DNA of 38,224 nucleotides from NCBI GenBank assembly GCA_903883965.1, contig CAISCU010000055.1, positions 1 through 38,224 of the forward strand, in the 5' to 3' direction. Shown here piece after piece: positions 1 to 1,284 of the stretch. Under the pieces are notes generated by a model. That model had not been told where the DNA came from and ran no database searches. It saw nothing but the letters and a program-made list of their open reading frames with translations. Position 1 is the stretch's first letter. The number at the start of each line of letters is the position of its first letter. Made by a program: the position numbers and the translations under genes. The stretch is from an uncultured Bacteroidota bacterium. Lineage in GTDB: Bacteria > Bacteroidota > Bacteroidia > UKL13-3.

Positions 1-337
1 ATCATGGTGAAACCATAAACCCTGCAGCTTGATTGTTTCATCTAAAATTTATTATTTCCTCAAATTGCCGCCAACCAGCAGCGCAGGATTGGTCCACTTC
101 TTTAGCCAGGGGAATCATGAATAAAATTCATAAACCCTGCAGCTTGACAAAGCAGCCAAGGGAATCATGAATGAAATTCATAAACCCTGCAGCTTGTAAA
201 AGCGGCCAGGGGAATCATGGTGAAACCATAAACCCTGCAGCTTGATTGTTTCATCTAAAATTTATTATTTCCTCAAATTGCCGCCAACCAGCAGCGCAGG
301 ATTGGTCCACTTCTTTAGCCAGGGGAATCATGGTGAA
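1..337. repeat. Direct-repeat array of hairpin units (213-bp period)
   Basis: Positions 1-119 recur at 214-332 at a spacing of exactly 213 bp, and the window starts inside the array. The basic unit is a block of about 34-36 bp (partial at 1-31; full at 111-146, 161-196, 211-244; truncated at 324-337) that ends in CCCTGCAGCTTG. Each complete unit holds a small hairpin whose arms change together: ATGGT-GAA-ACCAT at 4-16 and 217-229, ATGAAT-AAA-ATTCAT at 117-131, ATGAAT-GAA-ATTCAT at 167-181. Units are separated by either 14 bp (147-160, 197-210) or an identical 79-bp spacer (32-110, 245-323). No convincing protein is encoded. The last copy breaks off in the first hairpin at 337. This looks like an intergenic palindromic repeat family; its function is unknown. 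Confidence 0.85.
111..210. repeat. Two tandem 50-bp units, each with two hairpins
   Basis: Units 111-160 and 161-210 are near-identical. Besides the ATGAAT/ATTCAT hairpin, each can form a second stem. In the first unit CCCT (135-138) pairs with AGGG (159-162) and GCAGCTT (139-145) with AAGCAGC (150-156) around loop GACA, leaving one A-A mismatch. In the second unit the same stem forms at 185-211 around loop GTAA with an A-G mismatch. The 79-bp spacers elsewhere in the array appear to sit in the loop of this second hairpin. Pairing is read directly from the sequence; whether it acts as RNA or DNA is not known. Confidence 0.7.
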
Positions 338-636: not shown

Positions 637-1284
637 ATGTCGCTTTCAAACATTCTTAAATTTTTCCAACCCAAAGACAAAATCTTTTACACCTTGTTCG
701 AACAAGTCACCGAAACATTGACCGAAATGGGAACTATTTTCCATCAGGCTTTGCACGAAACTGATTTTGCTAAAAGAGAAGAATTGTTGAAAAAACTGGA
801 AGATTTGGAACACAAAAACGATGAAACAACCCATACCATTTTTATTGAATTGGGCAGAAATTTTATTACACCATTTGACCGAGAAGACATCCATTACTTG
901 GCAACATCATTGGATGACATTGCTGATTACATTTGGGGTGCAGCTAAGAGAATTGTCAATTACAACATGGTTGATATTGATGAATCAACCAAAGGATTTT
1001 CAGTGATCATTAAAAAATCAATCACAGAATTGCACAAATGCATTGGTGAATTGCGTGGTATGAAGAAAATTAGATCAATCACTGAATCATGCATCAAAAT
1101 TAACAGCTACGAAAACGAAGGCGATGATTTGTTAGATAGTTCAATGGTTCAACTCTTCAATGCTGAAAAAGACCCAATTGTGGTCATTAAGAAAAAAGAC
1201 TTGTACCAAATGTTAGAGATTGTTACAGACAAGTGTGAAGATGCTGCCAATGTCATTGAGTCTATCATTGTAAAATACGCTTAG
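637..1284 (+). CDS. DUF47 family (PhoU-like) phosphate transport regulator
   Basis: This 215-residue, all-helical, acidic protein belongs to the DUF47/PhoU-like family, which accompanies PiT phosphate transporters and is thought to control them or bind metal in the cytoplasm. Conserved features are the long helix near residues 20-60 with LEHKNDETTH and the segment FITPFDREDIHYLATSLDDI, typical of this family (E/DxxxD metal-binding pattern). No signal peptide or membrane segment is visible. The ATG follows a candidate promoter at 527-557, and pit begins 17 bp after the stop, so the two genes are almost certainly co-transcribed. Full length for the family. Confidence 0.9.
   Translation: MSLSNILKFFQPKDKIFYTLFEQVTETLTEMGTIFHQALHETDFAKREELLKKLEDLEHKNDETTHTIFIELGRNFITPFDREDIHYLATSLDDIADYIWGAAKRIVNYNMVDIDESTKGFSVIIKKSITELHKCIGELRGMKKIRSITESCIKINSYENEGDDLLDSSMVQLFNAEKDPIVVIKKKDLYQMLEIVTDKCEDAANVIESIIVKYA

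Follow-up and report, generated by a model that had tools for sequence, protein, structure and literature searches.

A possible array of attachment-site-like, gene-less hairpin elements behind ssrA in an uncultured Bacteroidota bacterium

The window analysed here, a stretch of 38,224 nucleotides that represents contig C55 of an uncultured Bacteroidota genome (G000, 2.48 Mb in 55 contigs), begins at a contig end within an array of short hairpin units. Judging from sequence comparisons, we give an even chance to the reading that attachment-site-like, gene-less DNA elements of less than 200 bp stand in tandem behind ssrA, the tmRNA gene, and that their array ends in the window. The parts of the array and the two genes that follow it are these:

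1..32, forward strand: 3' part of a hairpin unit that the contig start truncates, with ATGGT/ACCAT as its inner stem; the part of the array on contig C18 ends in the same 32 nt
33..103, forward strand: spacer, the end of which, GCAGCGCAGGATTGGTCCACTTCTTTAGCC, contains TCCACTTC, a string also present in tmRNA just before the T-arm
104..153, forward strand: hairpin unit A, CCAGGGG..ATGAAT/AAA/ATTCAT..CCCTGCAGCTTG, corresponding to the tmRNA T-arm and acceptor strand with the T-loop replaced
154..203, forward strand: hairpin unit B, ATGAAT/GAA/ATTCAT
204..245, forward strand: hairpin unit C, ATGGT/GAA/ACCAT
246..316, forward strand: second copy of the spacer (1-119 is identical to 214-332, 100%)
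317..336, forward strand: truncated last unit, AGCCAGGGGAATCATGGTGA, the distal end of the array, with unique sequence beyond
637..1284, forward strand: PhoU-like gene (PhoU_div), which together with the transporter gene is conserved to the right of the ssrA array of G003
1302-2975: phosphate transporter gene, beside the PhoU-like gene and likewise conserved next to the G003 array

Units A and B, each of 50 nt, are 92% identical, and TRF reports one 50-bp array (104-245, score 221). There is also a higher-order period of 213 bp, composed of a spacer of about 72 nt and three hairpins. The initial annotation of this DNA had placed the inner stems correctly, with ATGGT/GAA/ACCAT at 4-16 and 217-229 and ATGAAT/ATTCAT at 117-131 and 167-181. 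It was also right in assigning the two ATGGT copies to a single duplication and in describing a second stem (GCAGCTT with AAGCAGC or AAGCGGC), which is present at the unit junctions.

The array continues at the end of contig C18, on the reverse strand, where it starts some 110 nt downstream of the tmRNA gene (L010:429-795, minus strand; Rfam RF00023, 118.7 bits). In the orientation of the window, the order on C18 is tmRNA, a palindromic block of about 110 nt with a T-tract hairpin in it (fold z -5.7), then a pair of hairpin units, a spacer and three more hairpin units, ending in the 32-nt overlap with positions 1-32 of the window. From this overlap, the last of the five C18 units may be the same copy that opens the window. 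C18 and C55 are very probably neighbouring contigs, because in G003, a species of the same genus, one contig leads from ssrA through the array and a HipBA module to PhoU and Pit genes like those in the window. The number of 213-bp periods is subject to the gap between the two contigs. Assembly contigs end inside or close to tail arrays of tRNA and tmRNA genes at position 1 of the window, at position 1 of L010 and at the ends of C51, C41 and C12 of this genome; copy numbers are therefore uncertain, and short-read genomes under-report such arrays, which are easily missed because contigs break inside them.

The units resemble the 3' end of the gene that they follow. A unit consists, in order, of CCAGGG, AATC, the inner stem, ATAAA and CCCTGCAGCTTG, and the tmRNA 3' end of TCCACTTCCGGA, CCAGGG, TTCAACT, CCCTGCAGCT and CCAC. 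In this comparison the T-stem and acceptor strand are kept, an inner hairpin with its small variable stem replaces the T-loop, and TCCACTTC precedes the T-arm by way of the spacer. The alignment of a unit to the tmRNA 3' end scores 30.6 (p 0.0004-0.0008 from shuffles), a value reached by 3 of 2508 decoy stretches. The resemblance in the window is degenerate, with matches of 10, 6 and 8 nt, and common descent of the unit and the tmRNA 3' end appears likely on this similarity. Repeats of the Dehalococcoides type start in the T-loop; the g6 and g10 relatives described below have AATCCC..., and the window matches the T-stem and acceptor portions only. Because its upstream AAGC-GC half is approximately the acceptor strand inverted, a unit can form a short helix like that of the acceptor and T-stem.

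The initial annotation had also pointed out that paired stem changes would be expected of a hairpin under selection. The repeat is indeed palindromic and its stem changes are two-sided, but among the 11 distinct units of the ssrA array, taken from three species, a single inner-stem pair has changed on both sides (A-T versus G-C), and two cells are broken (ATAGT/GCCAT in C18 unit 2 and ATGAAT/ATCCAT in G003 unit 3). The A-T to G-C difference is plausibly a single historical event, and for that reason the window cannot show selection. By reading, a further coupled change is seen in G003, from AAGC/GCTT to ATGC/GCAT, and another (TTGA/TCAA to TTTA/TAAA) is found in the first block behind ssrA. 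As a whole, the 213-nt repeat folds no better than its shuffles (RNA z -1.15, DNA z -1.50). This lack of excess structure, the one paired change with its two broken cells, the exact 119-nt duplication and the 50-bp tandem units all favour a neutral tandem repeat without function, in which the tmRNA 3' region and a palindromic terminator would have been duplicated by slippage at hairpins, the units homogenised by recombination and the stem changes coupled by template switching at quasi-palindromes. We regard this neutral account as rather unlikely, on grounds that come from other genes and genomes.

Among the four species of the genus, the array lies behind ssrA in G000, G001 and G003 and is absent from G002; in a scan of the genome collection, the records of G001 and G003, both Bacteroidetes MAGs, were the only ones to match. 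Elsewhere in the bacterial family, G006, G008, G012 and G029 have palindromic blocks behind ssrA, and after each block the tmRNA 3' end recurs in an exact or near copy (0 of 300 shuffles were as good). When the G029 block was used as query, relatives appeared in six g6 species and two g10 species, behind ssrA where the tmRNA gene shares the stretch, with others on contigs or at positions apart from it, as if displaced. Element copies are in tandem in G029 and in G020, and one copy in G020 lies behind tRNA-Ala(GGC), where the 19 nt repeated at its distal end come from tRNA-Ala and not from tmRNA. One element body is thereby found at two genes in G020, ending each time in the local gene's own 3' sequence. 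A covariance model search added relatives behind tRNA-Ser(UGA) in G024, G009 and G014, and in the first two the distal element copy matches the local tRNA-Ser end. Neither the shared body with its different terminal copies at tmRNA and tRNA-Ala nor the relatives at tRNA-Ser are explained by a neutral repeat. Behind the tmRNA gene of G013 (L049), the ssrA terminator region is repeated in tandem units of about 190 bp, in which the partial string GCTCCTTCGCCCTCC occurs; this looks like a tail array of yet another kind.

It was of interest to compare these loci with the tRNA genes of G000 itself. A copy of the gene's own 3' end was sought downstream of 30 of the 31, and most have none, a point against the attachment-site reading. 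At tRNA-Glu(TTC) on C51, a terminator-like hairpin is followed by tandem units of about 140 bp, each ending in CCTACGGGCTAC (12 of 12 nt) and with the inverted TAGCCCTAGG upstream; C41 is probably the other side of the C51 gap, where the array continues. Behind tRNA-Met(CAT) on C12 there is a block of three hairpins, with a homologous block at the same gene in G003, and the distal 3'-end copy in G000 is short and not significant alone. In G002, what lies at tRNA-Met resembles a simple tandem duplicate of the tRNA 3' end plus terminator, a point in favour of the neutral account. The design that recurs is a palindromic block and then copies of the host gene's 3' end, often in tandem, and it is weaker at tRNA-Met in G000. 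At tRNA-Arg(CCT) (G000:C6:5048-5119, L157), a copy of roughly the 3' half of the gene lies some 70-110 nt downstream, longer than the other tail copies and different from them.

The tRNA-Glu element gives a far clearer picture of stem changes than the ssrA array. In 15 copies from nine genomes, 5 of 10 pairs have changed on both sides (24 cells), and the covariation score is 0.448; shuffles give 0.110, and slid pairings do not exceed 0.095. All standard-pair changes in the hairpin are two-sided and none is one-sided, as correction by template switching would yield under the neutral account; the missing wobble intermediates fit either this or strong selection on the palindrome. The end arms of the element track the host tRNA, since tRNAs with GGGCTA mostly have TAGCCC and those with GGACTA have TAGTCC or TAGTGC. 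The strong conservation of this element across genera is a further fact that a neutral repeat leaves unexplained. Selection or palindrome maintenance is thus well supported solely in this sister element and is weak at the ssrA array. We abandoned an argument about the strand of function that compared A-C with G-T cells in the hairpin of the tRNA-Glu element, as most A-C cells lie at the stem end.

Strong stem covariation, which the g6/g10 element shares with the tRNA-Glu element, could alternatively reflect function as RNA. The arrays would then be transcribed with or near ssrA (and tRNA-Glu) to give small acceptor/T-stem-like RNAs, for example decoys for enzymes that process or bind tmRNA and tRNA, and the mimicry of the T-stem/acceptor helix by the units speaks for this; the tyrT repeats of E. 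coli, with their rtT RNA, would be a precedent. We judge it improbable, since a T-tract hairpin lies between gene and array at both ssrA and tRNA-Glu, promoter-like sites are not beyond chance, units of the window family break their stems and the array has no Rfam match; a scan of the window and L010 at gathering thresholds returned only tmRNA and one tRNA. Conservation at one gene over several genera also means that a resident host function could lie behind the tRNA-Glu element, and target-site duplication by a transposase or casposase may have acted in place of site-specific recombination. No RAYT transposase was seen among the genes examined. The palindromic units with small loops recall REP elements, to which the initial annotation had likened them and which a RAYT transposase would spread, but the genome search, which did yield further copies on C18, found every match in the single array behind ssrA and no dispersed copies in G000 or the genus, making this explanation hardly tenable and the initial interpretation of a REP-like family under selection only partly right. 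A phage or plasmid origin was rejected: neither 50,697 phage records nor 72,556 plasmid records yielded a match, and the exact pattern was not found in IMG/VR.

The reading of the array as attachment-site-like DNA may be extended as follows. A site-specific recombinase would act on the T-loop and 3' end of tRNA and tmRNA genes and would insert a short palindrome that has no genes and at whose border the target 3' end is copied. Extra 3'-end copies would then multiply by unequal recombination or slippage, and drift, and could serve as a landing zone for integrase-bearing islands and toxin-antitoxin modules. The hairpins would work as DNA, either as inverted recombinase-binding arms or as passively maintained palindromes, and not as regulatory RNA. 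We propose, tentatively and as a possibility that is still doubtful, that a family of uncultured Bacteroidota possesses undescribed miniature integrative elements, gene-less palindromes of 90-170 bp that insert at tRNA and tmRNA 3' ends. Each would contain a terminator and finish with a copy of the 3' end of its target, and the elements would multiply in tandem and dock toxin-antitoxin modules and defence islands. By analogy, such elements would stand to tRNA-targeting recombinases as MITEs stand to transposases.

Several known systems share parts of this design. In E. coli, the 178-bp tyrT repeats lie in tandem behind a tRNA gene, each including the tRNA end, and are reported to be transcribed, as rtT RNA. 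The arrays described here are likewise in tandem behind a gene and end in its own 3' sequence; they differ in phylum and gene, and the rtT RNA model RF00391 was unmatched in the Rfam scan of the window and L010. Integron attC arrays consist of short imperfect palindromes that keep structure while sequence varies, with small genes such as toxin-antitoxin cassettes between them. The likeness to these is in working only, namely palindromes with toxin-antitoxin genes between; no attC consensus boxes were noted by eye, and the arms here, unlike those of attC, derive from tRNA and tmRNA 3' ends. The closest parallel in target is found in the ssrA islands of Dehalococcoides, which use the region from the tmRNA T-loop to the 3' end and leave tandem 3'-end direct repeats of about 20 bp downstream of ssrA, some with a large serine recombinase and others without an integration module (PMC3146451). 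The tmRNA 3' region as target and its tandem repetition are alike here, with the repeats of the window similar only in their T-stem and acceptor portions, and G020 has a large serine recombinase next to its tmRNA gene; the Dehalococcoides islands bear genes, whereas the present units are gene-less hairpins of 50-213 bp, and the design occurs at further tRNA genes. The displaced tDNA fragments of the Islander catalogue resemble our observations in that a 3' fragment of the tRNA or tmRNA gene is repeated downstream of it (PMC4383910), clearly so at tRNA-Glu of G000 and at tmRNA, tRNA-Ala and tRNA-Ser of its relatives, and in degenerate form at ssrA of G000. Islander rejects candidates that are shorter than 2 kb or have no integrase (PMC4383910), and the elements here, unlike its islands, are about 90-213 bp long, with no gene and hence no internal integrase. 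The only counterparts that literature searches brought up were ssrA and tRNA islands with genes. If the proposal is true, the biology of tRNA-gene integration sites gains a size class that lies outside the built-in criteria of a standard island finder (below 2 kb, no integrase), along with a comparative test of how tRNA and tmRNA 3' ends become attachment sites.

It would also help to explain the pile-up of islands and toxin-antitoxin genes at tRNA and tmRNA genes, of which there are several instances in these genomes. In G020, a stretch of about 35 kb (G020:C9; L238 610-2196 and L239) separates tmRNA from the four-copy element array; the large serine recombinase gene stands beside tmRNA, and a dnd-like (DNA phosphorothioation) gene set was read by eye from the ORF list of this island. 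Integrase-like reading frames, also by eye, lie behind ssrA in G018, G025, G030 and G032. No integrase linked to the short elements was found, nor was any excision, circular form or polymorphism between strains observed, and these points count against the attachment-site reading; there is no serine recombinase among the genes examined near the window array. In G008, a hairpin after the distal copy was dropped as a candidate for the original ssrA terminator; an ORF there reads like the C-terminus of the G020 recombinase, and the region is probably an island remnant. Toxin-antitoxin genes are found between or beside full and partial tRNA-Glu element copies on G000:C41 (L222 1-2671), where there are an MNT/HepT pair, PIN_3 and PemK. 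The HipA/HTH pair (HipBA) of G003 (L059 1197-2860), situated between the ssrA array and PhoU, is absent in the window species. On G003:C40, a nucleotidyltransferase gene comes after the tRNA-Glu array. Finally, G002 (C44:111000-112040, L267) has a small gene for a GIY-YIG nuclease that is flanked by tRNA-Asn on one side and by a repeat of the 3' end of tRNA-Asn on the other, in the manner of a 300-bp cassette.
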